Under the pieces are notes generated by a model. It was not told where the DNA came from, did not search any database, and saw only the letters and a program-made list of their open reading frames with translations. From NCBI GenBank assembly GCA_029862205.1, contig JAOTXT010000049.1:1-33260 (forward strand): DNA of 33,260 nt, in the 5' to 3' direction. Of the stretch, positions 12,091-28,840 are shown in pieces (the first letter of the stretch is position 1; each line of letters begins with the position of its first letter). The translations under genes were made by a program, and so were the position numbers. Source of the DNA: Paracoccaceae bacterium (GTDB lineage: Bacteria > Pseudomonadota > Alphaproteobacteria > Rhodobacterales > Rhodobacteraceae).

Positions 12091-13224
12091 ATGGATAAGG
12101 CGATGGATGGGGTGGCCACAAAAACGGTGGTCAATTCCTGGAACGAGTGGGATCCCTTGAAGCATGTCATCGTCGGGCGCGCCGATGGCTGCTACATCCC
12201 GCCGCCCGAACCGGCGCTGGACGCGAAGGTTCCCGAGGATTCGGACATGCGCGGCCAATGGGGCATGCGCCCGCAGGAGACGATCGACCGGGCCAACGAG
12301 CTGTTGGACAACTTCGCCGCGCTGCTGGAGGGCCGAGGCATCCGGGTCGACCGCCCGACGCCGATCGATTTCTCCAAACCCGCGACCACCCCGGATTTTC
12401 ACACCGACAGCCAGTTCGGCTGCATGCCGCCGCGCGACGTGCTGCTGACGGTCGGCTCCGAGATCCTGGAAGCCACCATGAGCTATCGCTGCCGGTGGTT
12501 CGAATACCTCTGCTACCGGCCCTTGATGCAGCGCTATTGGGAAGAGGACCCGAACTTCCGCCACGAGGCGGCGCCTAAGCCGCGGCTGACGGATGCGGAT
12601 TACCGGCAGGACTATCTCTCGGAGAAAATCGGCGACGCCAAGCGCCTGGAATGGACGGCGGAAAAATTCTTCGTGACGACCGAGGAGGAGCCGTTATTCG
12701 ACGCCGCCGACGTGCTGCGCTTCGGGCATGACCTCGTGGTCCAGCACGGCTTCACCACCAACCTCAAGGGCATCGAATGGCTGCGCCGGCATTTCCCGGA
12801 CCACCGGGTCCATGCGGTGAACTTCCCGGGCGATCCCTATCCGATCCATATTGACGCGACATTCACGCCGCTGCGGCCTGGCCTGATCCTGAACAACCCG
12901 CAGCGCCGCCTGCCGGACGCGCAGCGCGAGATGTTCCACCGCAATGGCTGGGAGATCGTGGATGCGGCCCAGCCGGCCCACAATCAGCCCCCGCCGCTCT
13001 GCTATTCAAGCACCTGGCTGAGCATGAACGTCCTGGTGCTGGACCCGAAGACCGTCTGCGTCGAGGCGAGCGAGGTCTGGCAGGCCGAGCAGATGGACAA
13101 GCTGGGAATGGAGGTGATCCCGGTCGAGCTGCGCGACGCCTACGCCTTCGGCGGCGGGCTGCATTGCTGCACGGCGGACGTGTATCGCGAGGGCGGGTGC
13201 GAGGATTATTTCTCGAACCGGTAG
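12091..13224 (+). CDS. Glycine amidinotransferase-like enzyme
   Basis: This enzyme would transfer the amidino group from arginine to an amine acceptor, by the Cys-His-Asp mechanism of the AGAT superfamily. The expected motifs are present: PLFDAADVLRFG (201-212) with the active-site Asp, HIDATFTPLRPG (253-264) with the His, and GGGLHCCTADV (354-364), where Cys359 aligns with the nucleophile. The 377-residue length fits. ATG 12091 follows AGGGGG five bases away. The acceptor could be glycine (giving guanidinoacetate), another amino acid or an inosamine; sequence alone does not decide. The stop codon TAG (13222-13224) is the TAG of a REP foot. Ureohydrolase genes in the same window make a guanidino-compound role attractive, but it has no operon partner. 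Confidence 0.88.
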   Translation: MDKAMDGVATKTVVNSWNEWDPLKHVIVGRADGCYIPPPEPALDAKVPEDSDMRGQWGMRPQETIDRANELLDNFAALLEGRGIRVDRPTPIDFSKPATTPDFHTDSQFGCMPPRDVLLTVGSEILEATMSYRCRWFEYLCYRPLMQRYWEEDPNFRHEAAPKPRLTDADYRQDYLSEKIGDAKRLEWTAEKFFVTTEEEPLFDAADVLRFGHDLVVQHGFTTNLKGIEWLRRHFPDHRVHAVNFPGDPYPIHIDATFTPLRPGLILNNPQRRLPDAQREMFHRNGWEIVDAAQPAHNQPPPLCYSSTWLSMNVLVLDPKTVCVEASEVWQAEQMDKLGMEVIPVELRDAYAFGGGLHCCTADVYREGGCEDYFSNR

Positions 13225-13292
13225 GGTGCGCATTCATGCGCACCACCCGCGTCGCAACATTCCCGATTGGTGCGCATGAATGCGCACCCTAC
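13221..13292. repeat. REP pair C (inverted, GTAG feet)
   Basis: The left element has the foot GTAG (13221-13224) and hairpin GGTGCGCAT/ATGCGCACC (13225-13244). The right element is its exact inverse, hairpin 13269-13288 and foot CTAC (13289-13292). The left foot supplies the amidinotransferase stop codon, and the right foot supplies the stop of the antitoxin relic on the other strand. Confidence 0.85.
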
Positions 13293-13395
13293 CAGGGGGA
13301 TTTCCCCTTGTTCTGCGCCTCCACATACGCCTTCAGCACCGCATTGATCCGAGTCTGGTAGCCCTTGCCCTGGGCCTTGAATCGATCCAACAAGC
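13289..13395 (-). pseudogene. BrnA-type antitoxin remnant, 5' part missing
   Basis: Reading the minus strand, about 35 codons encode LLDRFKAQGKGYQTRINAV followed by LKAYVEAQNKGKSPW, which closely matches the conserved C-terminal ribbon-helix-helix part of BrnA antitoxins (the FKAQGKGYQTRIN core). The N-terminal half and any start codon are gone; the frame runs upstream into REP pair D, and no BrnT toxin gene is nearby. The stop TAG lies in the foot of REP pair C, so the relic is bracketed by REP elements. It is probably non-functional and left behind by a deletion at a REP; a call based on remembered family sequence. Confidence 0.7.
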
Positions 13396-13462
13396 GTAGG
13401 GTGGGGTTCCACCCCACCATTCTCCTTGTCATCGCATCCGGCGGGTCGAAAACCCACCCTAC
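13396..13462. repeat. REP pair D (inverted, GTAG feet)
   Basis: The left element has GTAG (13396-13399) and hairpin GGTGGGGT/ACCCCACC (13400-13418, 3-base loop). The right element is degenerate in the stem but keeps CCCACC and the foot CTAC (13459-13462). That foot provides the stop codon of the minus-strand LytM-like gene. Confidence 0.8.
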
Positions 13463-14097
13463 TCGCGTAGGCACGCCACAGGATAGAGGAGCGGCGCGCC
13501 ATCCCGGTTACCCCGCAGGGCCTCGGCGAGGCGATTGGGGGCATAGCCGCCCGCCTCCGGCGGCCGCGCGGCGCGCTCGGGATCGACGCATTGGACTCGG
13601 CCATCCGGGCGGGTGCGGAACAGCGGCTCAGGGTTCACCGCCTGGCCCGCCTTCAGCAGCTCGAAATGCAGGAACGCGATCCCCCGCGGCACGGTTCCAG
13701 TGTCGCCCACCGTACCGATCCGCTGTCCGGCCCGGACCGGCGCGCCTTCGGTCACCTCCACGGAATGAAGATGGGTGTAGACCGTCAGATAAGCCGGCCC
13801 GGCGCCGGTGGTGGCGATCTCGACCACCCGGCCACGCCCAGGCTCGACTGCGACCCGGACGACCACCCCATGTGCCACGCCGTAGACCGGGGTGCGGACG
13901 CGGGCAATGATGTCGATGCCCTGGTTCGGTTGCGCCCGCCATCCGCCGCCGATGCGTGTCGACGACCCGAATTGCGACACGATCCGGTAGGCGTCGTCCG
14001 GATAGCGCGTAAAATACGGTAGCTCTCCCCGGGCTGCAGGCGCAGGCCCGGTGATGGCGGCCGCGGTCAGAGCGGCAAGGATCGTGCAAACCGGCAT
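13459..14097 (-). CDS. LytM/M23-like domain protein with altered metal site
   Basis: This exported protein has a LytM (peptidase M23) fold: a signal sequence or N-terminal anchor (about residues 1-23), then GIDIIARVRTPVYGVAHGVV, YTHLHSVEV, VRAGQRIGTVGDTG and FLHFELLKAG. In active M23 enzymes zinc is held by the His and Asp of HxGxD and by the second His of HxH. Here the first reads NQGID (Asn58, Asp62) and the second FLH (Phe142, His144), so one zinc ligand and one catalytic His are missing. It is probably a non-catalytic cell-wall protein, such as an amidase activator, or a decayed enzyme. ATG 14097 is chosen over upstream codons, which run through a REP hairpin; TTGGGG precedes it. The stop TAG is the REP D foot. 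Confidence 0.82.
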   Translation of the reverse strand: MPVCTILAALTAAAITGPAPAARGELPYFTRYPDDAYRIVSQFGSSTRIGGGWRAQPNQGIDIIARVRTPVYGVAHGVVVRVAVEPGRGRVVEIATTGAGPAYLTVYTHLHSVEVTEGAPVRAGQRIGTVGDTGTVPRGIAFLHFELLKAGQAVNPEPLFRTRPDGRVQCVDPERAARPPEAGGYAPNRLAEALRGNRDGAPLLYPVACLRE

Positions 14098-14115
14098 CGC
14101 ATGCCCCAAGCAAGC

Positions 14116-14185
14116 GTAGCGTGGGTTTTCAACCCACCGCTCCCCGCGCGATCGCGTCATACGGTGGGTTGAAAACCCACCCTAC
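14116..14185. repeat. REP pair E (inverted, GTAG feet)
   Basis: The left element has GTAG (14116-14119) and hairpin GTGGGTT/AACCCAC (14121-14137, loop TTC). The right element has hairpin GGTGGGTT/AACCCACC (14163-14181, loop GAA) and foot CTAC (14182-14185). It lies between the LytM-like start and the OsmC-like stop, and the right foot contains that stop codon. Confidence 0.85.
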
Positions 14186-14601
14186 CCCGTATCCACCACC
14201 GCGAAGTCATGGCTCATCTCGGCCGTCTTCGCCACCATCGCCGAGGCCGAGCAGTATTTCTCGACCGAGAGGTTGACCGCGCGCTCGACCTTCTTCGCGC
14301 TCAGCCCCCGGCCCTTGACCACGAAATGCATGTGGATGCGGGTGAAGACCTTGGGGTCGGTCCCGGCCCGTTCGGCGTCGAGTTCGACCACACAGTCCTC
14401 GACCGCCTCGCGCCCCTTCTCCAGGATATGGACCACGTCGAAGGCCGAGCAACCGCCGGTTCCGATCAGCACAAGCTCCATCGGGCTCGGGCCTGGCTTC
14501 TGCCCCTGCTCCCCATGCGCGGTGCCAAGAACGACCGCATGACCGCTGCCCGCCTCGCCGACGAAAGTCCGGTCGCCCACCCATTTGACCCGCGCTTGCA
14601 T
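14182..14601 (-). CDS. OsmC/Ohr family protein
   Basis: This is an OsmC-like thiol-dependent protein of 139 residues, in a family that reduces organic or fatty-acid hydroperoxides in the cytoplasm. It carries both family cysteines in their usual settings, GGCSAFDVV and KYCSASAM, with PGPSPMELVLIGTGG between start and first Cys. It resembles the YhfA-type branch more than Ohr, so the peroxidase role is less certain. ATG 14601 is chosen because GGGAGG lies at ideal spacing and family sequence (MQARVKWVGDRTF) begins there; the longer frame upstream is not coding-like. The stop TAG lies in the REP E foot. It is separated from the LytM-like gene by that REP pair. Confidence 0.9.
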   Translation of the reverse strand: MQARVKWVGDRTFVGEAGSGHAVVLGTAHGEQGQKPGPSPMELVLIGTGGCSAFDVVHILEKGREAVEDCVVELDAERAGTDPKVFTRIHMHFVVKGRGLSAKKVERAVNLSVEKYCSASAMVAKTAEMSHDFAVVDTG

Positions 14602-14767
14602 GCCATATCCTCCCGCGATCCTGATTTTCCTGCCATTCTGCAAGCCAAGTGCGCCCCTGGCAAATCGTCGGGTCGTGCCGCAAAGACGGCTGCCACATAG
14701 AATTAGTGCGCGCGCCGAGCCCGGCGCAGGCACTTCAATCGTCGAGTCCCTGTGGAGTCTTGGGAGC

Positions 14768-14947
14768 TTAGTGGATCTTGTGGGACTCGATCGCGGTTGT
14801 GACGCGGCTCAGATCGAGGGACGGGACGGGGTCGCCGTCCAGATCATCAGCCATATCGATAAAGGCATCCAGCCTGGCAACCTCGGAGATCAGCTCATCA
14901 CGCAGTTCGATGGCGACCGCCACCAGATCGACCTCGGTGTCTGACAT
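14768..14947 (-). CDS. Small acidic protein, 59 residues, unknown
   Basis: A 59-codon frame starts MSDTEVDLVAVAIELRDELI and ends TTAIESHKIH, with TAA at 14768-14770. It is rich in Asp and Glu, has no cysteine and reads as a helical, soluble, strongly acidic peptide (ELRDELISEVARLDAFIDMA). AAGGGT stands about 11 bases before ATG 14947. The 14-base tandem repeats lie 48-90 bases upstream, where a promoter is expected. I recognise no family. Codon use resembles real genes of the window, so it is a moderately supported small gene. Confidence 0.55.
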   Translation of the reverse strand: MSDTEVDLVAVAIELRDELISEVARLDAFIDMADDLDGDPVPSLDLSRVTTAIESHKIH

Positions 14948-14994
14948 TTCAATTCACCCTTCACACATTCTGTCACGCTTACGCGACCAAACTC

Positions 14995-15036
14995 ACTGGC
15001 CGGAATTTATTGGCCGGAATTCACTGGCCAGACGAC
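14995..15036. repeat. Tandem direct repeat, 14-base unit, about three copies
   Basis: Units are ACTGGCCGGAATTT (14995-15008), ATTGGCCGGAATTC (15009-15022) and a decayed ACTGGCCAGACGAC (15023-15036). The TTGGCCGGAATT core spans nearly one and a half helical turns per unit. It lies between the 59-residue ORF and the membrane-protein gene, upstream of the former, so it could be a regulator binding array. Confidence 0.65.
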
Positions 15037-15132
15037 CTAGCCCACCCGGCGGGCGCACCAAAAAACCGCGTTGGGTCATCAGGCGAGCACCGTCCCTATA
15101 ACACCCCAATAACGGGAATTATTCAATGATTT

Positions 15133-15819
15133 TTAGGTTTTATGTCGCGACCGAAGCCAAAGATGGCCAAGTAAAACTGTTGCGATGCCAGCGCCCGAGA
15201 CCGCGATCAGCCAGGGCCAGGTCAGATCCATCATCCGGGCACCCATCCAAACCATCAGGATCGTCAGGGGCAGGATCCCCAGCCCCGTGGTCCATAAAAA
15301 CGTGCCCCAGCCGACGCGGGTCAGCCCTGCGGCGTAGTTGATCAGGTTGAACGCGATGACGGGGATCAGCCGCGCGATCAGCAGCGTGGCGGGGCCCAGT
15401 TCCTCGGTCCAACGGTCGAGCTTGGCGTTCGCGCTCGGTCCGAGCACCGCATTGACGAATGGCCGCCCGAGCCAGCGCGAGAGGCCGAACGAGAGCGCCG
15501 CGCCGATCATCGCGCCCAGCCAGACCATGGCGGTGCCCCAGACCGTGCCGTAGACCGCGCCGGCGCAGAGCGCCAGGATCTCGGCCGGGAAGGGCACGAA
15601 GCTGTGCAGCACCATCAGCGCGACCACCGCCGCCAGGCCCCAATCCCCGTAGCCGCGGATCCGCTCCGCCAGCACGGCCGGCTCGAGCCCGGTGCCCATC
15701 TCGGTGAATGCCAGCGTGGCACCCAGGCCGATCAGCAGTACGAGCGCCAGGGCGGCCAGCCCGATCCGCAACGATAGGCGCAGCGGCCGGGCGACGGCTA
15801 TCTCGCGGTCCCAGGCCAT
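15133..15819 (-). CDS. TVP38/TMEM64 (DedA-superfamily, VTT domain) membrane protein
   Basis: This inner-membrane protein of 228 residues belongs to the VTT/SNARE-associated group, linked to lipid scrambling or flipping and membrane homeostasis. After a cytoplasmic N-terminus and one span (about 17-38) come the family motifs: PFPAEILALCAGAVYG (76-91), a Gly-rich span GAMIGAALSFGLSRWLG, and ARLIPVIAFNLINYAAGLTRV (149-169), corresponding to the re-entrant loops with the R-P pair. ATG 15819 has only a weak upstream site. It is divergent from the PfkB kinase gene across about 110 bases. The precise substrate is unknown. Confidence 0.88.
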   Translation of the reverse strand: MAWDREIAVARPLRLSLRIGLAALALVLLIGLGATLAFTEMGTGLEPAVLAERIRGYGDWGLAAVVALMVLHSFVPFPAEILALCAGAVYGTVWGTAMVWLGAMIGAALSFGLSRWLGRPFVNAVLGPSANAKLDRWTEELGPATLLIARLIPVIAFNLINYAAGLTRVGWGTFLWTTGLGILPLTILMVWMGARMMDLTWPWLIAVSGAGIATVLLGHLWLRSRHKT

Positions 15820-15933
15820 GGCTCAGCATAACGCGCCCCGGGCCATGCCACCATTGCAAACATTCCGGTGTGAACAGGCACCCATCCGCCCTATGCTGAT
15901 GCCCGCCCGGATGCCTGGCGGAACGAGGTGACG

Positions 15934-17043
15934 ATGCCAGCCCAGCCCCTGCGATCGCTCCCCATGCGCTCGCTTCATGTCGGATCGGCGATGATCGACA
16001 TCATCTGCATCGTCGCGGCCGAGAATATCGAGCGCATGACGTTTACCAACGAGGGCAAGGCCTTCCTGATGGTCGAGACCGGGCGCAAGGTCGCCGCCGA
16101 GTCGATCACCAATCATGTGGGCGGCGGGGCCTGCAACACCGCCGTCGGTCTGACCCGGCGAGGGTGGCTGACGGACGTTCTGGCGAAGACCGGTGAGGAC
16201 CTGAATGCCGAGGCGGTGCGCGAGCATTTGGAGCTGAACGGCGTCTCGACCGAGCATCTGATCACCGCCGAGCGGTTGGCGACCGGGACGGCGGTGATGG
16301 TGGCCAGCCACGACCGCAACGCCTCGATCTTCGTGCATCGCGGCGCCAACGAAACGCTCGCGCCCTGCGACCTGCCGGATGAGATCTTCGCCGGGCGGGA
16401 CCTTGTCTATGTGGCCCCTCTCTCCAGTGCCTCGGCCGATTGCATGCCCGACCTGGTGGCCCGGGCCAAGCGCGCCGGCGCCCTGGTCGCGGTCAACCCG
16501 GGCATCCGGCAACTGGCGTCACGAACCCAGGCGTTCATCGACGCCCTGGCCGATATCGATCTCATTTCGGTAAATCGGGTCGAGGCCGAGACGCTGGTCC
16601 CGGCGATCATGGCGCGCGCTGCGCCCGGGGACGCGGGGCCTCCACCCGAGAACGGCCCAGAGCTGATGAAGCGCGGCCTGACCTTTGGCGGGTTCGAAAT
16701 CGGCTTGGCACCCTTCATGGAGGCGCTGCGCACGCTCGGGCCGCGTTGGGTGCTGGTGACCGACGCGATCAAGGGTGCCTATCTGGCGGCGCCCGAGGGG
16801 ATTTTCTGGCGCCCGGCGCTGCCGGTCACGGTGCAGGGCACGGCCGGGGCGGGCGATTCCTATACCTCGACCCTGACGGCCGCGCTGGCCGAGGGACTGG
16901 AGCCGGCCGAGGCCATGCTCGAGGCGGCGATCAACGCGGCCTCGGTGGTGGGTGCGCTCGATACCACGTCGGGTCTTTTGACGCCTGAGCAAACGGCTCG
17001 ACGCTTAGCGGCTTTAAGTGATGTTGTGCTTATAAAGATTTAA
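15934..17043 (+). CDS. PfkB-family (ribokinase-like) carbohydrate kinase
   Basis: This cytoplasmic kinase would phosphorylate a sugar, nucleoside or related compound. The N-terminal motif HVGSAMIDII and the glycine-rich HVGGGACNTAVGLTRRG (first PfkB signature area) are followed by the C-terminal anion-hole signature GTAGAGDSYTS with the catalytic base Asp308. An insertion around residues 225-260 (PENGPELMKRGLTFGGFEI) is longer than in E. coli ribokinase. ATG 15934 is preferred to GTG 15928, because that GTG is part of the GAGGTG ribosome binding site. The product is 369 residues. No sugar transporter or isomerase lies beside it, so the substrate cannot be inferred from context. Confidence 0.9.
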   Translation: MPAQPLRSLPMRSLHVGSAMIDIICIVAAENIERMTFTNEGKAFLMVETGRKVAAESITNHVGGGACNTAVGLTRRGWLTDVLAKTGEDLNAEAVREHLELNGVSTEHLITAERLATGTAVMVASHDRNASIFVHRGANETLAPCDLPDEIFAGRDLVYVAPLSSASADCMPDLVARAKRAGALVAVNPGIRQLASRTQAFIDALADIDLISVNRVEAETLVPAIMARAAPGDAGPPPENGPELMKRGLTFGGFEIGLAPFMEALRTLGPRWVLVTDAIKGAYLAAPEGIFWRPALPVTVQGTAGAGDSYTSTLTAALAEGLEPAEAMLEAAINAASVVGALDTTSGLLTPEQTARRLAALSDVVLIKI

Positions 17044-17198
17044 GATTGGCGCGCAGCCGGCCTGTCGCAGCAATCACCCTTCGCCTTTGGCGGCGCTTAA
17101 CAAATGGCGTTTCGGGCGCATGAGATCAGATTTGATCGGAGAGCCAGAGCACAGGAATGCTGCCCCCACCCGAGGGTAGGGGCGCATTCCGCGTCCCG

Positions 17199-17426
17199 TC
17201 AGATGCCGAAGACGTCGGGCAGGTCCGCCGCCGGAAGATCCGGCATATCAGCCATCGCGGCTTCAGTGGCGCTCGGGAGGCTCAGCTCCGGAAACGTTGG
17301 AGCGGTCAGCTCTGGCATTCCGGCATTTTCCGGAACCGTTGGTATGTCCATCGGCTCGGGCAGCCGTGCCTGAGGCGGAACCGCATTGGCCGCCTGCGAC
17401 GGCGGAGCGGCAGTCGATTTCCCCAT
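17199..17426 (-). CDS. Proline-rich acidic 75-residue protein, unknown
   Basis: This small ORF has one of the best ribosome binding sites in the window (AAGGAGG, seven bases before ATG 17426), which argues that it is translated. Fifteen of 75 residues are proline, with one Lys, one Arg, ten acidic residues and no Cys; Pro-acidic pairs recur (PEP, PEN, PEL twice, PDL, PDV), and DLP occurs twice near the C-terminus. It is probably disordered. There is no signal peptide or membrane span, and I recognise no family. It is convergent with the kinase gene, and its upstream region is the AT-rich block at 17465-17550. Confidence 0.6.
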   Translation of the reverse strand: MGKSTAAPPSQAANAVPPQARLPEPMDIPTVPENAGMPELTAPTFPELSLPSATEAAMADMPDLPAADLPDVFGI

Positions 17427-17464
17427 GATTAACCTCCTTCACGGGTTGGTTTCTTGGGTGCAGC

Positions 17465-17550
17465 TTAAAAGAGAGTAAGTTTTATAAATATTACCGAAAG
17501 AAATAGTATTAATATTAAATAGATTACTTTAATTAGTTAAATTATTGTTG
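17465..17550. promoter_or_regulatory. AT-rich block upstream of the proline-rich ORF
   Basis: About 86 bases contain only some 14 G or C (near 16%), in a window of roughly 65% G+C. It includes TATAAATATTA and repeated AT stretches. The likely role is promoter/UP-type DNA for the minus-strand ORF or a site for an AT-binding silencer such as MucR/Ros; I cannot pick out boxes. Confidence 0.5.
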
Positions 17551-17572
17551 AAAATGTGGCAACTTTCAACAA
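17545..17572. promoter_or_regulatory. Inverted repeat at the edge of the AT-rich block
   Basis: Perfect 9-base arms TTGTTGAAA (17545-17553) and TTTCAACAA (17564-17572) are separated by 10 bases. It lies about 120 bases upstream of the proline-rich ORF and has no T-run, so an operator is more likely than a terminator. Confidence 0.45.
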
Positions 17573-17716
17573 CACGGCGACGCTACACCGAACCTGGTTA
17601 AACGTTTCCTAACAACACATCGGGGAGATCGGGTGTCCGCCTCCGGCCGGAAGGGCCGGCATCGAAAACCAGCCGCGATATCGCGTCACCGAGCCGGTCG
17701 TCACGTGAGGCGCCCG

Positions 17717-19066
17717 TCAGAGAGTCCTGAGATAAGCGTCGTATTCCACGTCCGGAATGCGTGCCATCAGGGTCGCGCGTTCCTGGCGCTTGACCGCCGC
17801 GAACACCGCCCGGAACTCCTCGCCCAGCCAATCTGCGACGAAGCGCGACCCGGACAGCGCCTGCTCGGCCATGACCCAGCTGAGCGGCAACTCGGCGCCA
17901 TCGGCGCCGGATGCTTCGCCGGTCACCGGCGCGCCGGGGTCCGTGCCGCGCTCGATCCCGTCCAAGGCCGCGGCCAGCACCGCCGCCGCGAGCAGATACG
18001 GGTTGGTATCGGCGCCGGCCACGCGGTGCTCGATCCTTGCGCCCTTGCCCGCGGTCTCGGGCACCCTGAGCGCGGTGCCCCGGTTGTCGAGGCCCCAGGC
18101 AGCGACCACAGGTGCGTAGGAGCCCGGCATGAACCGGCGATAGCTGTTCTGATGCGGCGCGAAGATCAACATGCAGTCCGGCATTGCCCGCAGCATCCCG
18201 CCGACCGCCGCCTTGACCTTGTCATTCGGCTCGGTTCCGCCGCCATCGAAGATGTTGCGGCCGTCGCGATCGGTCAGGCTGAGATGGATATGCATGCCCG
18301 AGCCGGACATGTCGCCATAGGGCTTCGGCATGAACGTCGCGTCCATCCGTTGCGCGCGCGCCACGCCCCGGATCGCGCGCTTGAGCGCGACCAGGTGATC
18401 GGCGGCGGCCAAGGGATCGGCGGTGTGGGTCAAGTTCATCTCGAACTGGCCCGCGCCGAACTCGCAGATCGCGGTTTCGGCGGGGGCGCCCAGAGTTCGG
18501 GCGGCCTCCGTGATCCCTGCGATCACCGGTTCGAAGGACCGCATGACGCCCATGTCGTAGATTTGCGCGCGCTCGAGCCGTCCACCGGCTTCGGGGTTCA
18601 CGGGCGGCGCGGGCTTTTCCGGGTCGATCAGGTAGAACTCCAGTTCCAGCGCCATGACCGGGGTAAAGCCCATCGAGGCGGTGCGTTCGGCCACCCGTGC
18701 CAGCACGCCGCGCGGGTCGTAGCCACAGACCCCCTCGCCGTCAGGAGCGCTCAACATGCATTGGATCTGCGCAGTTGGGCGTTCGGCCCAAGCGAGCGGC
18801 GCCAGGCTCGGCCCCACCGGGATCAGGCTTCCATCCGGATCGCCTTTGTCGAGCGCGATGCCCGCTGCCTCGCAATCGGCGCCGAAGATATCCAGGCCCA
18901 GGGTCGAGGTGGGCATCTTCATGCCGCCGCCGCCCAGCTTCTCCAGCATCGCGGCGGGCACCAGCTTGCCGCGCGCGACGCCGTTGAGGTCGGTCACGTA
19001 GACCTCAGCGGTCTCGATATCCTGATACGCGGCGCGGAAGGCCGCGAGCTGTTCGGCATAGCTCAT
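17717..19066 (-). CDS. Glutamine-synthetase-family enzyme (gamma-glutamylpolyamine synthetase type)
   Basis: This GS-fold ATP-dependent ligase most likely joins glutamate to putrescine or another amine (PuuA/GlnA3-like) rather than to ammonia. Active-site motifs: LELEFYL (metal Glu), GAGQFEMNLTH, GSGMHIHLSL (metal His), NSYRRF and the arginine motif RIEHRVAGADTNPYL. The 449-residue length fits the PuuA group. ATG 19066 lies three bases after the agmatinase stop, so it is the second gene of a tight operon whose first gene is the agmatinase homologue. That neighbour, the aminotransferase and the PuuB-like oxidase make the polyamine route the best reading. The amine substrate is inferred. Confidence 0.88.
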   Translation of the reverse strand: MSYAEQLAAFRAAYQDIETAEVYVTDLNGVARGKLVPAAMLEKLGGGGMKMPTSTLGLDIFGADCEAAGIALDKGDPDGSLIPVGPSLAPLAWAERPTAQIQCMLSAPDGEGVCGYDPRGVLARVAERTASMGFTPVMALELEFYLIDPEKPAPPVNPEAGGRLERAQIYDMGVMRSFEPVIAGITEAARTLGAPAETAICEFGAGQFEMNLTHTADPLAAADHLVALKRAIRGVARAQRMDATFMPKPYGDMSGSGMHIHLSLTDRDGRNIFDGGGTEPNDKVKAAVGGMLRAMPDCMLIFAPHQNSYRRFMPGSYAPVVAAWGLDNRGTALRVPETAGKGARIEHRVAGADTNPYLLAAAVLAAALDGIERGTDPGAPVTGEASGADGAELPLSWVMAEQALSGSRFVADWLGEEFRAVFAAVKRQERATLMARIPDVEYDAYLRTL

Positions 19067-19069
19067 CGG

Positions 19070-20023: not shown

Positions 20024-20059
20024 CGGATGTCTCAGGATTGGGGCATTGACAGAGCACAA

Positions 20060-20071
20060 TTGTGATCACAA
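20060..20071. promoter_or_regulatory. Operator palindrome in the agmatinase/gntR divergent promoter
   Basis: The perfect 12-base palindrome TTGTGATCACAA sits midway in the 79-base gap between the two divergent starts. The same core recurs at 20774-20787. FCD-type GntR proteins bind short palindromes of this size, so autoregulation plus control of the agmatinase operon is likely. Confidence 0.75.
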
Positions 20072-20102
20072 ATTAGATCGAGTTGCAAGGGATCGAATAC
20101 AC

Positions 20103-20787: not shown

Positions 20788-20842
20788 ATCGCAACGACAC
20801 CGTGCACAGACGCGCTCGACCTCCATTAAGGACCAGACAGCC

Positions 20843-22240
20843 ATGAATATCGCCACCAATCTCCGCTCGACCGCTGAATATCAGGCGATGGATGCGGCCC
20901 ATCACTGGCACCCCTTCACCGATACGGCTGCGCTCAATGCCAAGGGGGCCAGGGTCTTCACGGGGGCCGAGGGGGTCTGGCTGACCGACTCGGATGGCAA
21001 CCGAATCCTCGACGGCATGGCCGGGCTCTGGTGCGTCAATATCGGCTATGGCCGGCATGAGGTGGCCGAGGCGGTGGCGCGCCAGATGCGCGATCTGCCC
21101 TATTACAACACCTTCTTCCAATGCACCCATCCGCCGGCGGCCGAGTTCGCCGAGGCGCTGACCGCCGCCGCGCCCGATCACCTGAACCGGGTTTTCTTCA
21201 CCAATTCCGGCTCGGAATCGAACGACACGGTGTTTCGTCTGGCGCGGGTCTATTGGGAGTGCATGGACAAGCCCACCAAGAAAACCTTCATCTCGCGCAA
21301 GAACGCCTATCACGGCTCGACCATCTGCGGCGCGTCGCTGGGCGGCATGGCGGCGCCCCACCGCCAGGGAGGTTTGCCGATGCAGGGCATCCACCATATC
21401 GGCCAGCCCTATTGGTTTGGCGAAGGCCGCGACATGGACGCGGAAGAATTCGGCCGGATGCGCGCCCGTGAATTGGAGGTGGCGATCGACTGGCTGGGCG
21501 AGGACAACGTGGCCGCCTTCATCGCCGAGCCGGTCCAGGGCGCGGGCGGTGTGATCATCCCGCCCGAGAGCTACTTCCCCGAAATCGCCCGCATCTGCGC
21601 CGAGCGCAACATCCTGCTGGTCGCCGACGAGGTGATCTGCGGCTTCGGGCGTACCGGCAATTGGTGGGGGTCCGAGACATTCGGGATCGAGCCCGACCTG
21701 ATGCCGATCGCCAAGGGGCTGACCTCGGGCTATGTGCCCATGGGCGGGGTCTTCATCTCGGATCGGGTCGCCGGTCCGCTGATGGATAAGGCCGGCGAAA
21801 TCTATCACGGCTACACCTATTCCGGCCACCCGGCGGCCTGTGCGGCGGGGCTCGCCTCTTTGCGGATTATGCAAGAGGAGCAGCTGGTCGAGCGGGTGCG
21901 CGACCGGGCCGGTCCCTACCTGCAGCAACGCTGGGCGAGCCTGGCCGACCATCCCCTGGTGGGCGAGGCGCGCATGGTCGGGCTGATGGGAGGGCTCGAG
22001 ATCGTGCGGGACAAGAAGACGATGGAGCGCTTTGACGGCGAGGCCGAGGCCGGGCGTCGTTGCCGGGACACTGCTGTCGCGCAGCATGGGCTGGTGATGC
22101 GCGCGGTCGGCGACACGATGGTGATCTCGCCGCCCCTGGTGATCAGCGAGGAAGAGTGCGACGAGCTGGTCGGCCGCGCCCGCAAATCGCTGGACGGCCT
22201 GGCCGACGAGTTGACCCGCGATGGGGTTGCGCTGGACTGA
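20843..22240 (+). CDS. Class III aminotransferase (putrescine/omega-amino acid:pyruvate type)
   Basis: This PLP-dependent aminotransferase would move the terminal amino group of putrescine, another polyamine or an omega-amino acid to pyruvate. Lys291 in IAKGLTSGY binds PLP, Asp262 lies in ADEVICGFGRTG, and FTNSGSESNDT (119-129) binds the cofactor phosphate. N-terminal HHWHPFTD is typical of the SpuC/omega-aminotransferase group. The product is 465 residues. ATG 20843 follows AAGGA by ten bases; the frame opens earlier, within the operator, which is not a sensible start. It is followed without a gap by the FAD oxidase gene, and the GntR operator stands immediately upstream. Confidence 0.92.
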   Translation: MNIATNLRSTAEYQAMDAAHHWHPFTDTAALNAKGARVFTGAEGVWLTDSDGNRILDGMAGLWCVNIGYGRHEVAEAVARQMRDLPYYNTFFQCTHPPAAEFAEALTAAAPDHLNRVFFTNSGSESNDTVFRLARVYWECMDKPTKKTFISRKNAYHGSTICGASLGGMAAPHRQGGLPMQGIHHIGQPYWFGEGRDMDAEEFGRMRARELEVAIDWLGEDNVAAFIAEPVQGAGGVIIPPESYFPEIARICAERNILLVADEVICGFGRTGNWWGSETFGIEPDLMPIAKGLTSGYVPMGGVFISDRVAGPLMDKAGEIYHGYTYSGHPAACAAGLASLRIMQEEQLVERVRDRAGPYLQQRWASLADHPLVGEARMVGLMGGLEIVRDKKTMERFDGEAEAGRRCRDTAVAQHGLVMRAVGDTMVISPPLVISEEECDELVGRARKSLDGLADELTRDGVALD

Positions 22241-22267
22241 GTGGTGGATGCCGCACACGAGCCATCC

Positions 22268-23563
22268 ATGACAGGCTATCTGACCGCCAACGACACCCCC
22301 GGTTCCCATGCCGATAGCTGGTATGCGGCCACTGCGGGCGAAGTGCCCGAGTATCCGGTGCTGGAGGGTGAGACCCGGGCGGATGTCTGCGTGGTGGGAG
22401 GCGGCTATGCGGGCCTCTCGGCGGCGCTGCACCTGGCCGAGCGGGGCTTCGATGTGATCCTCGTCGAGGCGAACCGGGTGGGCTGGGGTGCGTCGGGGCG
22501 CAATGGGGGGCAGGTCGGCATCGGCCCGCGCGCCGAGATGGGGAAATACGAACGCGCGGTCGGGCGCGAGGATGCCCGCAAGGTCTGGGACATCGCCGTC
22601 GCCGCCAACCGGCTGGTCAAGGACCTGATTCAGCGTCGCGGGATCGATTGCGATCTGGCGCCTGGCTATCTGGAGGCTTGCTGGAAGGCATCGCACGCGC
22701 CCGAGGTGATGGCCTATCCTGAGCATCTGGCGCGCCATTACGATCACCACGATTGCCGGCCGGTGAGCAAAGACGAGATGGCGGGGATGCTGGGCACGAC
22801 CCGCTATCACGGCGGCTATCTGGACATGGCGGGTGCCCATCTGCATCCGCTGCGCTATGCGCTGGGCCTCGCCCGGGCGGCGGTGGGCGCCGGGGCGCGG
22901 ATTTTCGAGCGGAGCCGGGTCACGGGGCTCGCGCCCGGCCGGGTGGCGACGGAGGCGGGCAGTGTGACCGCCGATCATGTGATCCTCGCCTGCAACGGCT
23001 ACCTGGACGGGCTGGCGCCCCGGGTCGCCCGGCGGACCATGCCGATCAACAATTTCATCATCGCGACCGAGCCCCTGGACGAGGGCCGCGCCCGCTCGAT
23101 CATCCGCGATCCGGTCTGCGTCTGCGACACCAAGTTTGTGCTGAACTATTACCGGTTCTCGCCGGACAACCGGATGCTGTGGGGCGGGGGTGAGAGCTAT
23201 GGGCGCCGGTTCCCCCGGGACATCGCTGGGCTGGTGCGGGGTAAGATGCTCGAGGTCTTCCCGCAGCTCTCGGACCTTGCCATCACCCATGCCTGGGGCG
23301 GGACGCTGGCGATCACCGGCACCCGGTTTCCCGCCTTCCAGCGGCTGGACGAGCGGACCCTGGCGATCTCGGGCTGGTCGGGCTCGGGCATCCACATGGC
23401 GACCATGGGCGGGCAGATCGCGGCCGAGGCGGTGGCGGGGACCATGGAGCGGTGGGACCTGATGGCCCGCCTGCCGACCCCGGAATTTCCGGGCGGCGAC
23501 TGGTTCCGGGCGCCGCTGCTGGCGCTCGCCATGACCTGGTACAGCCTGCGGGACCGGCTGTGA
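22268..23563 (+). CDS. FAD-dependent oxidoreductase (PuuB-like, gamma-glutamylputrescine oxidase family)
   Basis: This FAD enzyme of the DAO family would oxidise gamma-glutamylputrescine or a similar amine to the aldehyde with release of ammonia. The Rossmann motif VVGGGYAGLSAALHLAERG (42-60) is followed by GWGASGRNGGQ, typical of the PuuB group. The C-terminal SGWSGSGIHMATMGGQIAAE completes the FAD site. The product is 431 residues. ATG 22268 is preferred; a GTG at 22241 would abut the aminotransferase stop and add nine residues, and neither has a strong ribosome binding site. It is the last gene of the aminotransferase operon, ahead of a terminator-like palindrome. PuuC and PuuD homologues are not in the window. 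Confidence 0.88.
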   Translation: MTGYLTANDTPGSHADSWYAATAGEVPEYPVLEGETRADVCVVGGGYAGLSAALHLAERGFDVILVEANRVGWGASGRNGGQVGIGPRAEMGKYERAVGREDARKVWDIAVAANRLVKDLIQRRGIDCDLAPGYLEACWKASHAPEVMAYPEHLARHYDHHDCRPVSKDEMAGMLGTTRYHGGYLDMAGAHLHPLRYALGLARAAVGAGARIFERSRVTGLAPGRVATEAGSVTADHVILACNGYLDGLAPRVARRTMPINNFIIATEPLDEGRARSIIRDPVCVCDTKFVLNYYRFSPDNRMLWGGGESYGRRFPRDIAGLVRGKMLEVFPQLSDLAITHAWGGTLAITGTRFPAFQRLDERTLAISGWSGSGIHMATMGGQIAAEAVAGTMERWDLMARLPTPEFPGGDWFRAPLLALAMTWYSLRDRL

Positions 23564-23884
23564 GGGGTGTGAGAGGGCCAGGCTCTCACATGTGAGAGGG
23601 GTTTTAAGCGATTGGATGAAAGGCAATATTTTGGACGTTTACCGTTTTCTCACAGTTGGCGCGCGGTGGTGCGTTATTTGACGCAACGCGAATTGCGCCG
23701 GACTGACCAAAGCCTCGGCCGGCGCTGTGCAGAATTTGGGGCTGAGAATGATCGTCGAGGAAGTATGGCGTGGTGGTGGGGTTTCGGCCCAAAGCTGCTG
23801 TCCGGCCGAGTGCCGGTGAGCATTGATTTCGTGCCTCAAAAAGACCTTCTCGCGGACGGCCGTGAGCGCGTGCTTTTGACTGGC
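23564..23884. other. Gene-free stretch after the oxidase gene
   Basis: Beyond the terminator palindrome I see no gene with both a start signal and recognisable coding character. The longest frame (from 23612, plus strand) has no motif and overlaps the end of a better-supported small minus-strand ORF. Base composition is lower in G+C than in the flanking operon. Confidence 0.45.
23583..23598 (+). terminator. Likely intrinsic terminator of the aminotransferase-oxidase operon
   Basis: The palindrome CTCTCACATGTGAGAG lies 20 bases after the oxidase stop and is followed by GGGTTTTAAG. The identical 16 bases follow the M20 gene at 2770-2789. Confidence 0.55.
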
Positions 23885-24058
23885 CTAAGAGGGCCGGTCG
23901 ACAATTCTCGCTACGACCCACCCGCCAGCTGCCGCACCGATCATCGCGCCTATGAAAGCTGAGATCTGCGTTGGGTCATTTCCAAACACAGAGCTCGCGG
24001 CCAACCCGCCGAGGGCGATGCCGAGCACTGCGCCCGTCGAGATCAGAGTATTTTCCAT
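23885..24058 (-). CDS. Small glycine-rich membrane protein, 57 residues, unknown
   Basis: The frame encodes MENTLISTGAVLGIALGGLA, a short loop (SVFGNDPTQIS) and a second hydrophobic Gly/Ala-rich span (FIGAMIGAAAGGWVVARIV), ending in a basic/acidic tail. Two helices with glycine-zipper spacing suggest a small inner-membrane or envelope protein. ATG 24058 has AGGA nine bases upstream; a GTG at 24082 is a less likely start. I recognise no family. It is divergent from the receiver-domain gene and lies in the lower-GC part of the window. Confidence 0.55.
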   Translation of the reverse strand: MENTLISTGAVLGIALGGLAASSVFGNDPTQISAFIGAMIGAAAGGWVVARIVDRPS

Positions 24059-24217
24059 GTCGTCTATCCTGACGGGCCCCACTCAAAGTGGGTCGCTCTT
24101 CGCTGTCACCGATATTACCGGATTCCAATGTGAAGGCGACCACCTCAATTCGAGGGGAGTGAGGCGATCACCTTCGCGGACAGCAACCGTTCTTCGCTTG
24201 TCGAAAGTTGGCACGCG

Positions 24218-24745
24218 ATGTGGCGATTGTTGGATTGTTGTGACCCGACGCCGATGGAAGACATCACCGGGCATTTCCTTGGGCGAGAAACGACAGTTCA
24301 TCTATTCCTGCCGACCGCGGATGGAGCGGTCCCAGCCGAAAAACGCTACGAGCGGGAGAACGTCTTCGAAGGGCACGGCGAAACGGTTCTCGTTGTCGAG
24401 GACGACAAAGAAGTCCGGAGTTTGGTGGTGCGCATGCTTAAAGGATTGAATTACCATGTCATCGAGACGGCTACAGCGGTGGAAGCGATACAAGAATTGG
24501 AAGAGGTATGCCGCGTCGACGTCGTTCTTTCTGACATTGGGTTGCCGGGCGGCATGAACGGATATGAGCTGGCTGCAGCGGTTAGATCCGAGTATCCTGA
24601 GATTAAGATCGGGTTTATCTCTGGCTATGATGCGAGCAAATTCCCAAAGGACGGTCTTAATGTGCCAAACAATACCCTTCTCCGCAAACCGTTCAGCAGG
24701 CGGAAGTTATCCAGGTTAATTGAGCGGCTCATCACCAAGTATTGA
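24218..24745 (+). CDS. Response-regulator receiver-domain protein, apparently the tail of a hybrid kinase
   Basis: Residues about 56-170 form a complete receiver domain: acidic pocket EDD (61-63), phosphoacceptor Asp106 in VVLSDIGLPGGMNGYEL, Ser in FISGY, and Lys157 in LLRKPFS. The preceding segment LGRETTVHLFLPTAD resembles the last strand of a kinase ATPase domain followed by the usual linker in hybrid kinases, yet the rest of the kinase is absent and nothing upstream matches it. So this looks like a 5'-deleted hybrid kinase that may still act as a stand-alone receiver. G+C is near 50%, unlike the neighbours, which suggests transfer. The start is uncertain (ATG 24218 or 24254), and neither has a strong ribosome binding site. 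Confidence 0.75.
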   Translation: MWRLLDCCDPTPMEDITGHFLGRETTVHLFLPTADGAVPAEKRYERENVFEGHGETVLVVEDDKEVRSLVVRMLKGLNYHVIETATAVEAIQELEEVCRVDVVLSDIGLPGGMNGYELAAAVRSEYPEIKIGFISGYDASKFPKDGLNVPNNTLLRKPFSRRKLSRLIERLITKY

Positions 24746-24898
24746 CTGATTCGCAAGGTAATTTGAGGAAAGTGCGCTTCTGGAAAATTGGTCGGCTCCG
24801 TGGCGAACTGAAGGTCTGCTTTCGCATTGTGGGCCAGTATTTTCGCGACCGCAGCGGATGACCGCTATCCGCCCAAATACTCACTGCCGACACCACCC

Positions 24899-26122
24899 TC
24901 ACTCCGCCGCCTTGGCCTCCGCCGCGCGGTAGGTGAAGAGCTCGACCTTGCTTTGGAAGTCGGCCAGGCAGCGTTGGCCCGCGGACACCCACTGGTCCGG
25001 CACCGCCTCGGCGACCTTGCCGGTCGCCAGCACCTGGTGGCCCATATCCTTGGTCGCCGCCTCGATCCGCTGCACGCCGTTCACGACCCTGCCGATGCCG
25101 GAGAAGGCCAGGCGCTCGGGCACGCCGATATTGCCGAATTTCAACTCGCCGATATCGAGACCGATGCCGAAGTCGAGTGGTGCCTCCGCCGGCGTGCCAT
25201 TGGCAATCGCCTGGGCCTGGAGCTCGACCGCCTGACCGGCCGCCGAGGTGGCCCGGCGCGCCGCCGCCGCCGCGTCCTCGTCCTTGCCCACCGGGAAGAT
25301 CGCCAGCACCCCGTCGCCGATGAAGTTCAGGATCTCGCCGCCGTGGGAGATGACCGGCGCCGCGGTGCATTCGAAATAGCGGTTCAGAAGCGCGAGGTAG
25401 TCGTCCGGGTCCATCGTATCGGACAGCCGGGTCGAGCCGCGCATGTCCGAGAACCAGACAACCGCCGGGATGTGGTCGCCATCGCCGCGCTGGATGTCGC
25501 CGGCGAGTACCCGCCACCCGGCGGTCGGCCCCAGATAGGCGGTGGCCAGGTTGGCCATGACCCGCTTCTGGATCGCCGCGCGGCAGGCAACCGCGAAGAC
25601 CGTCTGGATGCGGCTGAGCGCGTCCAGGTCCATGTCGGTGAAGCCGCCCGGCCGCGACGTGGTCCAGCTCGCCATGATGCCCGTCGGTCCATCGGCGAAT
25701 TTGGTGAAGTCCGCGATCCCGAACCGCGACGAGGTCAGCAGGTAATCGGTATAGCCCTGGGCGGCGAAATCCTTCAGCACGTCGAAGTCCAGGAAGGCGT
25801 TCTCGCCGGTCAGCCGGCGGCGCAAGCGCGGCAGGTTGCGCGATTGCATCCGATGGAACGGGCTTTTCAGCCAATCCGCATTCCCGGCATTCGAGTGGTA
25901 GTATTGTTCGAGCTTGGCGCCCTTGCCCAGCCACCAGAAGACCTGCTCGGCCCGGAACAGGGGATGCAGGGTCGGCCAGCTGAGCACCGCCCGCTCGACC
26001 GGAATCCCGACCCCATGCAGCCGCTGGCAAAGCGCCTCGAAAAGCGCGACGATCTCGGGATCGCCCAGCGCCTTGCCGAGCAGCCAGGTCTCGATCTCGG
26101 CGATGAGGGAGTTGTGGGACAT
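24899..26122 (-). CDS. Class III adenylate/guanylate cyclase-domain protein
   Basis: An N-terminal region of about 210 residues with no membrane span and no domain I can name precedes a class III cyclase catalytic domain. Metal-binding Asp226 (WFSDMRGSTRLS) and Asp270 (FIGDGVLAIFP) are present, and the catalytic Asn and Arg are in VNGVQRIE. At the usual adenine-specifying Lys of the GG..LK.IGD motif there is Asn266 (GGEILNFIGD), so nucleotide preference is uncertain. The product is 407 residues. ATG 26122 is preferred; the longer open frame upstream is GC-rich intergenic sequence without coding character. It stands alone downstream of metG on the same strand, after about 290 bases of hairpin-rich spacer. 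Confidence 0.88.
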   Translation of the reverse strand: MSHNSLIAEIETWLLGKALGDPEIVALFEALCQRLHGVGIPVERAVLSWPTLHPLFRAEQVFWWLGKGAKLEQYYHSNAGNADWLKSPFHRMQSRNLPRLRRRLTGENAFLDFDVLKDFAAQGYTDYLLTSSRFGIADFTKFADGPTGIMASWTTSRPGGFTDMDLDALSRIQTVFAVACRAAIQKRVMANLATAYLGPTAGWRVLAGDIQRGDGDHIPAVVWFSDMRGSTRLSDTMDPDDYLALLNRYFECTAAPVISHGGEILNFIGDGVLAIFPVGKDEDAAAAARRATSAAGQAVELQAQAIANGTPAEAPLDFGIGLDIGELKFGNIGVPERLAFSGIGRVVNGVQRIEAATKDMGHQVLATGKVAEAVPDQWVSAGQRCLADFQSKVELFTYRAAEAKAAE

Positions 26123-26234
26123 GGGTGGGATTGTAGTGCGGCGGGGGTCTTCGGTCCAATGCTTGGTGCCTGATCCATTAGGTCCGGTTTGGCGTAAAGC
26201 CCGATCATGCTGCTCCCTAGCTCCTATGGATCGA

Positions 26235-26314
26235 GGGGAGCGGCCGGCCGCGGGCGGAAGCGAAGCGCCCGCCCGGGGGGGCGGTCGGGCGCTCCCCGGC
26301 GCTGACGCGCCGGG
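26235..26314. repeat. GC-rich nested inverted repeats upstream of the cyclase gene
   Basis: Outer arms GGGGAGCG/CGCTCCCC (26235-26242 and 26290-26297) enclose a GGGCG/CGCCC hairpin (26252-26270). A second hairpin, CCCGGCGC/GCGCCGGG (26295-26314), overlaps the end and is followed some 17 bases later by TTTTT on the plus strand. No plus-strand gene precedes it; it may be a structured leader of the cyclase message or a termination region. Confidence 0.4.
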
Positions 26315-26368
26315 CGGGTCGGGTGGCGTAATTTTTCTCAAATGATCCCAAATAGCGCCAATTGTGCC

Positions 26369-26391
26369 GCCGGGCGTTTTAGCGCCCCGGC
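26369..26391 (-). terminator. Hairpin downstream of metG, possible terminator
   Basis: The arms GCCGGGGCG and CGCCCGGC (minus strand, one bulged base) enclose a six-base A-rich loop, 22 bases after the metG stop. There is no U-tract, so it may be a Rho-assisted or weak terminator. Confidence 0.35.
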
Positions 26392-26413
26392 GCGGGGCCG
26401 GGACAATGAGTTG

Positions 26414-28138
26414 CTACTCTCCCGCGAACCGCGCCTCCATCTCGGCGCGCATCTCGTCCGAGATCTTTGCGAACAGGTTATCCGGCACGGTGAAGGCGTG
26501 GCCAGGGGGCAGAGCGTCGAGCGCGGTGCCGATATCCTTCGGCCACTCCGCCTGCTCCAGCCCCAGCGCCGCCAGCATCGCCTCGGCGGTATCCGGCAGG
26601 AACGGGTGCGAGAGCGCGGCGTAGAGCCGGACCAGGTTGAGCGCGAAGCGCACAGTCGCGGCGGCGCGCTGGGGATCCTCCTTGAACGCGGCCCAGGGGG
26701 CGGCGGATTGCAGGTATTCGTTGCCGACCACCCAGATCGCGCGCAGCTCGGAAGCGGCCTTGCGGATCTCCATCGCCTCCCAATTGGCTTCATAGGCTTT
26801 CAGCCGCTTGGTAAGTTCTGCCACCACCGCCGCCTCGGCCGCGCCGTATTCGCCGCCCGGCGGCACCTCCTCGCCGAATTTCGAGCGGCAGAACTTGGTG
26901 ACCCGGCTGACGAAATTGCCCAGCACATCCGCCAGGTCCTTGTTGACCCCGGTCTGGAAGCCGCCCCAGGTGAAGTCGCTGTCCGAGCCCTCGGGCGCGT
27001 TCGAGAGCAGCCACCAGCGCCAGTAATCGGACGGCAGGATGTCCAATGCCTGGTCCATGAAGACCCCGCGCCCCTGGCTGGTCGAGAACTTGCCGCCCTC
27101 ATAGGTCAGCCAGTTGAAGCCCTTGATGTAGTCGACCAGCTTCCACGGCTCCTCGCCGTCGAAATTGGCGCCCATGATGGTTACCGGGAACGAGAGCGTG
27201 TGGAAGGGCACGTTGTCCTTGGCCATGAACTGCACATAGCGCACGTCGCCCGCGCCCAGATCCTCGCGCCACCAGCGTTGCCAGGCGGCATCGTCCTGGC
27301 CGGTGGCGTCCGCCCATTCGGCGGTCGCGGCGATATATTCGATGGGTGCGTCGAACCAGACATAGAAGACCTTGCCCTGCATTCCCGGCCAGGTCTGGTC
27401 GCCCCGCTTGACCGGAATGCCCCAGTCGAGATCGCGGGTGATGCCCCGGTCCTGCAGGCCGTCGCCCTCGTTCAGCCATTTCCTGGCGATTGAGGTGGTG
27501 AGCAAAGGCCAGTCCTTTTTCGAGTCGATCCAGTCGCTCAGCCGCTGGCGCATGGCCGATTGCTTGAGGTAGAGGTGCTTGGTCTTGCGCACCTCCAGAT
27601 CCGTGGAGCCGGAAATGGCCGAGCGCGGGTCGATCAGGTCGGTCGGGTTGAGCTGCTTGGTGCAGTTCTCGCACTGGTCGCCGCGGGCGCGCTCGTAGCC
27701 GCAATTGGGGCAGGTGCCCTCGATATAGCGGTCGGGCAGGTAGCGGCCGTCGGCGTTGGAATAGACCTGTTCTTCCTCGCGCTCCTCGATCAGGCCGGCA
27801 TCGGCCAGGCGGCCGGCCAGGTGCTGGGTCAGCTTGTGGTTGCGCTCGGACGACGAGCGGCCGAAATGGTCGAAGCTGAGCCGGAACCCGTCGCCGAGGC
27901 GCTTCTGGATCGCCCAGAGCTCGGCGCAGTAATCGGCCACCGATTGACCGGCCGCCGCCGCGGCCAATTCCGCCGGCGTGCCATGTTCGTCAGTGGCGCA
28001 GATCAGCAGCACTTCGTGGCCCTGGGCCCGGCAATAGCGCGCATAGGCATCGGCCGGCAGCATCGAGCCCACCAGGTTGCCCAGGTGCTTGACGCCGTTG
28101 ATATACGGCAGGGCCGAGGTGATGAGGATGCGCGCCAT
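26414..28138 (-). CDS. metG: Methionyl-tRNA synthetase
   Basis: MetG charges tRNA-Met, including the initiator. The class I nucleotide motif appears as KHLGN (17-21) after SALPYINGV, the zinc knuckle has Cys143, 146, 156 and 159, and the anticodon-binding helical domain follows. The KMSKS loop reads KFSTS (350-354): the second Lys is Thr. The product is 574 residues, without the C-terminal tRNA-binding domain, as in the shorter bacterial form. ATG 28138 has GGAGG upstream and is preferred to the longer frame from 28243. It is divergent from a small membrane-protein gene. This is an essential housekeeping gene, so the region is chromosomal core. Confidence 0.97.
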
Positions 28139-28331
28139 GGATGCCTCCGATCTTCGAGCGCCCTCTATAGCGCCCGGGGCGCCCGGGTCAAACGGTGGGT
28201 CAAACGCCGCGCGAGGGCTTTGCCGCCGCATGACCTGAGTCAAAGTGCGGGGCGTGGATTTACGCTATCCAGATTCGCGGTCGCCCGCCGGGCCGGGCGC
28301 CGCGATGGATGTATTGAAGCGAGAGGCACCG

Positions 28332-28766
28332 ATGTTTACCAGGCCATCCATGGTGACCCGCATCGCCGTCGGCAAGACGGTGGGGTTCTTCTTCGGCCTG
28401 ATCGGGTTTCTGATGATGCCCTATATGTTGCCCGAGGCAGGCCAGATGCTGGCCTGGGGTTTCCTGCTTTGGTACACGACGCTGGGCGCCATCGTCGCGA
28501 TCTTCGGGGTTTTCGACTTCCACCCGATCCTGCGTTTGCCGATGCCCTGGTGGTTCCGGGCGCCGCTTCTGGGCGCCTGGATGAACTTCGTTCTGACCCT
28601 GTTGATCTATGACCAGCTCGCGGCCTTCGGCCTGGCGTTGTTCGGGGCCGAGGGGGTGTTCACGTCGCCCTTCTGGTTCGTGGCCGAGGGGGCGGTGGTG
28701 GGCTTGGTCATCGGATTTGCCGCGACCCGGCTGGGCGGCGAGGGGCCCGAGACGGCGGGGAGGTAG
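28332..28766 (+). CDS. Small integral membrane protein, unknown
   Basis: The 144-residue product has about four hydrophobic spans (roughly 10-30, 37-58, 73-100 and 112-134) with short loops, and a charged C-terminal tail. ATG 28332 is preceded by GAGAGG at five bases and is preferred to ATG 28305 or GTG 28245. I recognise no family. A short distance after the stop lies REP pair F, whose other half ends the convergent dimethylformamidase-like gene. The promoter region is shared with metG on the other strand. Confidence 0.72.
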   Translation: MFTRPSMVTRIAVGKTVGFFFGLIGFLMMPYMLPEAGQMLAWGFLLWYTTLGAIVAIFGVFDFHPILRLPMPWWFRAPLLGAWMNFVLTLLIYDQLAAFGLALFGAEGVFTSPFWFVAEGAVVGLVIGFAATRLGGEGPETAGR

Positions 28767-28778
28767 CCGGTGTTGCAT

Positions 28779-28840
28779 GTAGGGTACGCATTCATGCGCA
28801 CCTGGAATCGATCAATGGTGCGCATGAATGCGCACCCTAC
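28779..28840. repeat. REP pair F (inverted, GTAG feet)
   Basis: The left element has GTAG (28779-28782) and hairpin GGTACGCAT/ATGCGCACC (28783-28802) with one mismatch. The right element has hairpin GGTGCGCAT/ATGCGCACC (28817-28836) and foot CTAC (28837-28840), the same stem as pair C. The right foot holds the stop codon of the gene on the minus strand. Confidence 0.85.

Follow-up and report, generated by a model that had tools for sequence, protein, structure and literature searches.

Repetitive extragenic palindromes (REPs) of the GTAG superfamily carry a GTAG foot and a short palindrome, occur as monomers or dimers at gene 3′ ends and, by one sentence in the accessible part of Di Nocera, De Gregorio, and Rocco (2013; PMC3733652, which names TAG "opal"), have termini that often supply a TAG stop to flanking open reading frames (ORFs). 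Inverted REPs joined in a hairpin, mostly as doublets and in genomes with a REP-associated tyrosine transposase (RAYT), have been described as REPINs (Bertels and Rainey 2011, PMC3116915, in its available sections), in a paper whose main text contains neither "stop codon" nor "GTAG." In REPtrons, the rayt gene, whose product is related to the transposases of IS200/IS605, is flanked by REPs that directly follow its stop codon or lie very near it (Nunvar 2010, PMC2817692; PMC8266576; excerpts of both), and GTAG is a conserved recognition tetranucleotide involved in the choice of cleavage site by RAYT (PMC8266576, same excerpt). In Escherichia coli, REPs close to stop codons stall ribosomes, the hairpin lying within 15 nt of the stop (PMC12306157, excerpt). 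Here, we report GTAG-footed, REPIN-type elements whose feet serve as stop codons of neighboring genes, in a 33,260-nt stretch of DNA (the window; positions 1 to 33,260 of contig JAOTXT010000049.1, assembly GCA_029862205.1, Paracoccaceae bacterium) and across its source genome (4.44 Mb, 98.9% complete).

The elements match the GTAG superfamily in having the foot 5′ of a short palindrome, a high copy number, and a mostly extragenic position; they, too, occur singly and as dimers at the 3′ ends of genes. They match REPINs in architecture (54 dimers of 58 to 117 bp in the window and the retrieved loci, each made of two closely spaced inverted REPs) and in the presence of a RAYT in the genome. As in the stalling REPs of E. 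coli, their hairpin lies no more than 15 nt from a stop codon; unlike those in the source genome, the E. coli feet that we sampled end no convincing gene. The phenomenon is already known; this work adds the counts, the frame rule, the congener comparison with the trimming of proteins, the captures on both sides of one element, and the difference from E. coli. In literature searches on REPs and stop codons, PMC3733652 alone was found to state foot stops; they are counted, tested for frame, and compared with orthologs here, none of which is done in the accessible part of that paper. An earlier note on the window had left open whether stop capture is described as a rule: that one sentence describes it, but it is not universal, as E. 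coli K-12 shows.

Foot stops across the source genome

The window holds six inverted REP pairs of 62 to 74 bp with short palindromes, and its commonest foot is GTAG followed by GGTG. Direct reading of the window bore out the observation that 5 of the 12 feet are in-frame TAG stops, those of four ORFs and of a BrnA relic. Genome-wide, the foot GTAGGGTGSG has 155 exact matches (15 for the reversed control), 146 of which were placed and their surrounding stretches retrieved; the counts below rest on these 146. The genome is unannotated, and genes were called by codon usage.

Around 144 hairpin feet, we surveyed ORFs aimed at the foot with a stop from 150 nt before to 200 nt after it. Among 83 distinct coding ORFs, 31 stop at distance 0, exactly on the foot TAG, and the remaining 52 stop −5 to −144 nt from the foot, with at most four at any one distance; none stops beyond the foot, up to 200 nt. 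A separate scan for ORFs continuing into the element gave just two weak candidates among the 144 feet. The 31-ORF result was stable for coding scores from 12 to 80, and a relaxed list without the hairpin requirement held 36 foot-stopped ORFs. The share of foot stops by subfamily (0/5 for GTGGGTGC, 5/18 for GTGGGCTCG, and 26/60 for the others) involves small numbers and was not used.

With the first base altered (HTAGGGTGSG), 23 matches were found in the whole genome compared with 50 in the control, and the leading G is therefore part of the element. A miniature inverted-repeat transposable element with a TA target (IS630-like) was rejected on the same whole-genome counts. Within the retrieved loci, themselves picked by GTAG matches, a hairpin was present at 143 of 168 TAGGGTG sites, and G preceded TAG in 137 of these 143 hairpin feet, a share biased by that choice.

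Random insertion near gene ends gave far fewer foot stops. Real elements placed randomly at the ends of 96 genes distant from REPs (−5 codons to +60 nt of the stop) left upstream stops in 77% of cases, foot stops in 7%, and read-through in 16% (median extension, 29 residues), a ratio of in-frame capture to read-through of about 1:2. With read-through removed, 8.5% foot stops are expected, against an observed 31/73 (42%; p = 6e-15), where 73 is the number of ORFs with a stop within 64 nt of a foot. A second model, in which insertions were confined to the actual space up to the neighboring gene (135 genes), gave 21.4% (p = 4e-5 against 42%). Both models assume a loss of at most 5 codons, and the expected shares depend on that limit. 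The earlier note had held that the overlap of feet and stops is non-random and had asked for such a comparison; on this sample of the genome, its claim was not refuted.

Twenty-two dimers have a coding ORF arriving from each side: eight bear no foot stop, eight bear one, and six bear two, a distribution near independence (p = 0.39). Both genes have congener orthologs at two of the six double captures (loci L049 and L078), and the other four rely on codon usage for at least one side.

Orthologs in REP-poor congeners

Three congeners (G001, G002, and G004) are nearly REP-free, with 2 to 5 feet each, which shows lineage-specific gain or loss only; a REP-rich congener, G003, is not clearly nearer than the others. 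We searched the congeners with C-terminal fragments of 34 of the 36 foot-stopped ORFs; 22 had usable orthologs, and the 14 without one include 2 that were never queried. For all 22, the orthologs end no more than about 25 residues from the same place. Compared with the median of their orthologs, 11 of the 22 genes fell short by 1 to 12 codons, in most cases by 1 to 4, 8 were equal, and 3 were longer by at most one codon; excluding L038, which ends on GTAG without a hairpin, leaves 11 of 21 shorter. As controls, we took ORFs whose stop precedes a REP by 7 to 64 nt; of 37 eligible, 30 were queried, and 15 had usable orthologs among the 30 loci retained. None of the 15 was shorter, 13 were equal, and 2 were longer (Fisher p = 0.0009 versus foot-stopped genes). 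The contrast held for orthologs of at least 65% identity (7/15 shorter versus 0/14 controls, p = 0.006), at least 70% (6/12 versus 0/14, p = 0.004), and at least 75% (5/9 versus 0/13, p = 0.005). Ortholog stops of the foot-stopped genes were 55 TGA, 7 TAG, and 1 TAA (63 rows, some genes repeated). Half of the genes are shorter than their orthologs and the controls are not; in many cases, the stop therefore seems to have come with the element, either at the position of the old one or a little upstream of it. This is the outcome of the comparison with REP-free relatives that had been proposed as a check.

Two sites look like clean insertions. At L073, the gene resumes just beyond the element and, within a few codons, reaches a TGA overlapping the ATG of the next gene, and the same ATGA overlap is found in G003, with no element in the stretch read. 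At L040, the joined flanks yield TGA at the insertion point. Separately, the G003 ortholog of the gene at L058 (L258, contig G003:C269) ends in ATAGGGCGGGTCTTGACCCGCC, where a foot with a different palindrome gives TAG at nearly the same place.

Origin of the foot stops

We consider it probable that REPINs have landed at gene ends, where the foot TAG replaces the native stop when in frame and out-of-frame copies are lost. REPINs built of inverted GTAG-footed REP pairs would most likely be spread by the RAYT of the same genome, and copies would land in or beside gene ends. With a copy within its last few codons, a gene would survive only if the foot TAG were in frame; the TAG would then take the place of the native stop (usually TGA), at a cost of a few residues (mostly 0 to 5), and the hairpin would lie directly behind it, making the foot a portable stop codon with a hairpin attached. 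Out-of-frame copies would append REP-coded residues (median, 29 in simulation) and presumably be lost by selection. This survival filter is the best-supported core of the explanation, and the loss of out-of-frame copies explains the absent read-through and part of the distance-0 peak, not all of it. Two accounts had been offered in the earlier note, and the shorter genes and the lack of clear read-through fit selection for feet that restore termination better than insertion targeted to stops.

Several observations weigh against this explanation. The survival filter alone gives 8.5 to 21% foot stops where 42% are observed, and the 2- to 5-fold excess that remains may come from elements preferring to land there or from an advantage of having a hairpin at the stop. 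Most joined sites have no native tail, and 7/31 end within 8 codons in frame compared with 3/31 and 4/31 in the other phases. The congener orthologs used for the comparison are 50 to 95% identical at the protein level. The controls resemble their orthologs more closely (median best identity, 84% versus 73% for foot-stopped genes), which slightly lowers our confidence, and at 80% identity or above the contrast is gone (0/3 versus 0/11, too few genes). Finally, in 450 kb of E. coli K-12, searched by foot pattern, only 1 of 56 feet lies at an annotated coding sequence end, and doubtfully so: the exception, yahH (L307, positions 39769 to 40089), is an uncharacterized ORF that covers a REP array, ends on a REP foot, and is perhaps not a real gene. 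GTAG feet alone are therefore insufficient for the effect.

A stronger version, which we put forward tentatively, is that landing preference or selection favors REPINs exactly where the foot is the stop. The element would then be a portable cassette of stop and hairpin that captures gene ends, at times those of both genes of a convergent pair, and adjusts the termination and mRNA ends of dozens of genes.

Two other histories appear unlikely. The transposase might insert beside an existing GTAG, so that genes natively ending in G-TAG were the targets and no stop was imported. Such a history would account for the lack of read-through and for the excess over the survival filter, and the role of GTAG in cleavage-site choice (PMC8266576, the excerpt cited above) speaks for it. 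However, half of the foot-stopped genes, and none of the controls, fall short of their REP-free orthologs, and the ortholog stops are mostly TGA. A binomial estimate for native GTAG ends was discarded, since it depends on a wobble frequency that had to be assumed. One native GTAG also cannot explain two-sided capture: both feet are stops in 6 of the 22 two-sided elements, yet at most one foot could be native, and at L049 and L078 both genes are backed by orthologs.

Elements might also land downstream of the stop, with later deletions in the interval taking away the native stop and only those surviving that join the gene in frame to the foot, so that foot stops accumulate as an end state. Given little credence here, this course of events would account for the lost native tails, the shorter proteins, the two-sided capture, and the excess over the filter. 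It is opposed by the absence of an age signal in REP-arm identity, which averages 0.902 in 29 elements with no foot stop, 0.910 in 19 with one, and 0.889 in 6 with two (p = 0.84). A difference in stem mismatches between these classes (p = 0.005) was set aside, as it mixes subfamilies of unequal stem length.

That foot TAGs are simply read as the stops of spurious ORFs is very improbable: the gene calls do rest on codon usage with no annotation, and 14 of the 36 relaxed-list ORFs lack a usable congener ortholog (2 not queried), but the result is stable over the range of coding scores, and 22 foot-stopped ORFs have congener orthologs that end near the same place.

The window, the transposase, and other genomes

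In the window, both feet of the REPIN-type pair at positions 13221 to 13292 (GTGCGCATT arms) are stops. The left foot ends a 377-amino-acid ORF (12091 to 13224, + strand; TAG at 13222 to 13224); the stop stands as reported, and the name "amidinotransferase" is weak, the only Pfam match being PF02274 at 20.1 bits, under the cut-off of 22.8. The sole congener ortholog found for it (G004, 87% identity) is equal in length and stops on TGA. The right foot supplies the TAG (13291 to 13289) of a C-terminal relic of a BrnA antitoxin (13292 to 13393, − strand; PF14384, 38.1 bits; cut-off, 26.1), which is bounded by two REP pairs. The second of these (13396 to 13462; GTGGGGTT and GTGGGTTTT arms) ends with its right foot a peptidase M23 (LytM-like, by Pfam) ORF (13459 to 14160, − strand; TAG at 13461 to 13459). 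The listed start of this ORF falls within the next pair, and the real start is therefore probably further in. That pair (14116 to 14185; GTGGGTTTT arms; left foot reading GTAGCGTG) provides with its right foot the stop (14184 to 14182) of an OsmC-like ORF (14182 to 14733, − strand; PF02566, 65.8 bits). The pair at 28779 to 28840 (GTGCGCATT arms), which reads GTAGGGTACG, this and the GTAGCGTG above being corrections to the earlier reading, stops with its right foot (TAG at 28839 to 28837) an ORF resembling the N,N-dimethylformamidase beta subunit (DMFA2_C; 28837 to 30540, − strand; PF20254, 235 bits); on its other side, an arriving + strand ORF terminates 16 nt ahead of the left foot.

RNA folding of these four pairs predicted a single long hairpin each (z = −8.1, −4.8, −8.1, and −11.5, in the order given), with the stop TAG base-paired at the bottom of the stem. 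All six pairs had been described as GTAG-footed; they are REP pairs with mostly GTAG feet, the exceptions being the pair at 2604 to 2677, with ATAG on both sides and the closest incoming coding stop 118 nt upstream of its right foot, and that at 2316 to 2386, with a degenerate right foot (AAGG) and no stop capture seen. Elsewhere in the window, at positions 31196 to 31269, lies an inverted repeat of 28 nt without mismatches, its cores CCCGGG and its ends CGAC/GTCG. It is unlike the GTAG REPs and may belong to a second, CGTC-like repeat family; a GTCCCGG...CCGGAAC motif was seen near a REP in locus L096.

The suspicion that a RAYT gene lies elsewhere in the genome proved right. It was found on contig C21 (L047:2614 to 3105, − strand; NF047646, 168.4 bits; cut-off, 80), flanked by REP dimers at L047:2501 to 2617 and 3140 to 3214. 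Unlike in the REPtrons described in the excerpts cited above, a foot TAG is itself the rayt stop, and the RAYT matches NF047646 and no Pfam family. A scan of the source genome with Pfam Y1_Tnp (PF01797) gave no match, and the conclusion that the genome has no RAYT was wrong, since that model misses the one matching NF047646; the PF01797 scan of relatives shares this blindness and was not used for absence. A scan of species genomes gave 18 RAYT relatives, the best four from Defluviimonas, Pararhodobacter, Jannaschia, and Pseudooceanicola, and in 7 of the 18 the RAYT ORF ends on a GTAG foot (an ORF at L189 also terminates in GTAG, but at the edge of a contig, and is not among the 7). Surveys that rely on Pfam may overlook RAYTs of this kind and describe REPs as lacking a transposase.

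A genome of another genus in the same family (G022; read in 57 stretches covering the first 100 of its 208 feet) showed a weaker effect, with 5 of 33 ORFs at distance 0 and none beyond the foot. Many of its feet (L194 to L250) lie 250 to 310 bp apart or back to back, not 60 to 75 bp, which suggests longer composite elements.

These findings suggest that a mobile repeat has repeatedly swapped native stops for its own at the cost of a few residues per protein, which is a simple route, and one that can be counted, for selfish DNA to edit the ends of genes. Ribosome release and mRNA 3′ ends should be affected by a hairpin that starts immediately after the stop. Liang and colleagues reportedly found in 2015 that E. 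coli REPs near stop codons stall ribosomes. Whether the cause is a landing rule, a filter, or a benefit becomes testable through the contrast with E. coli.

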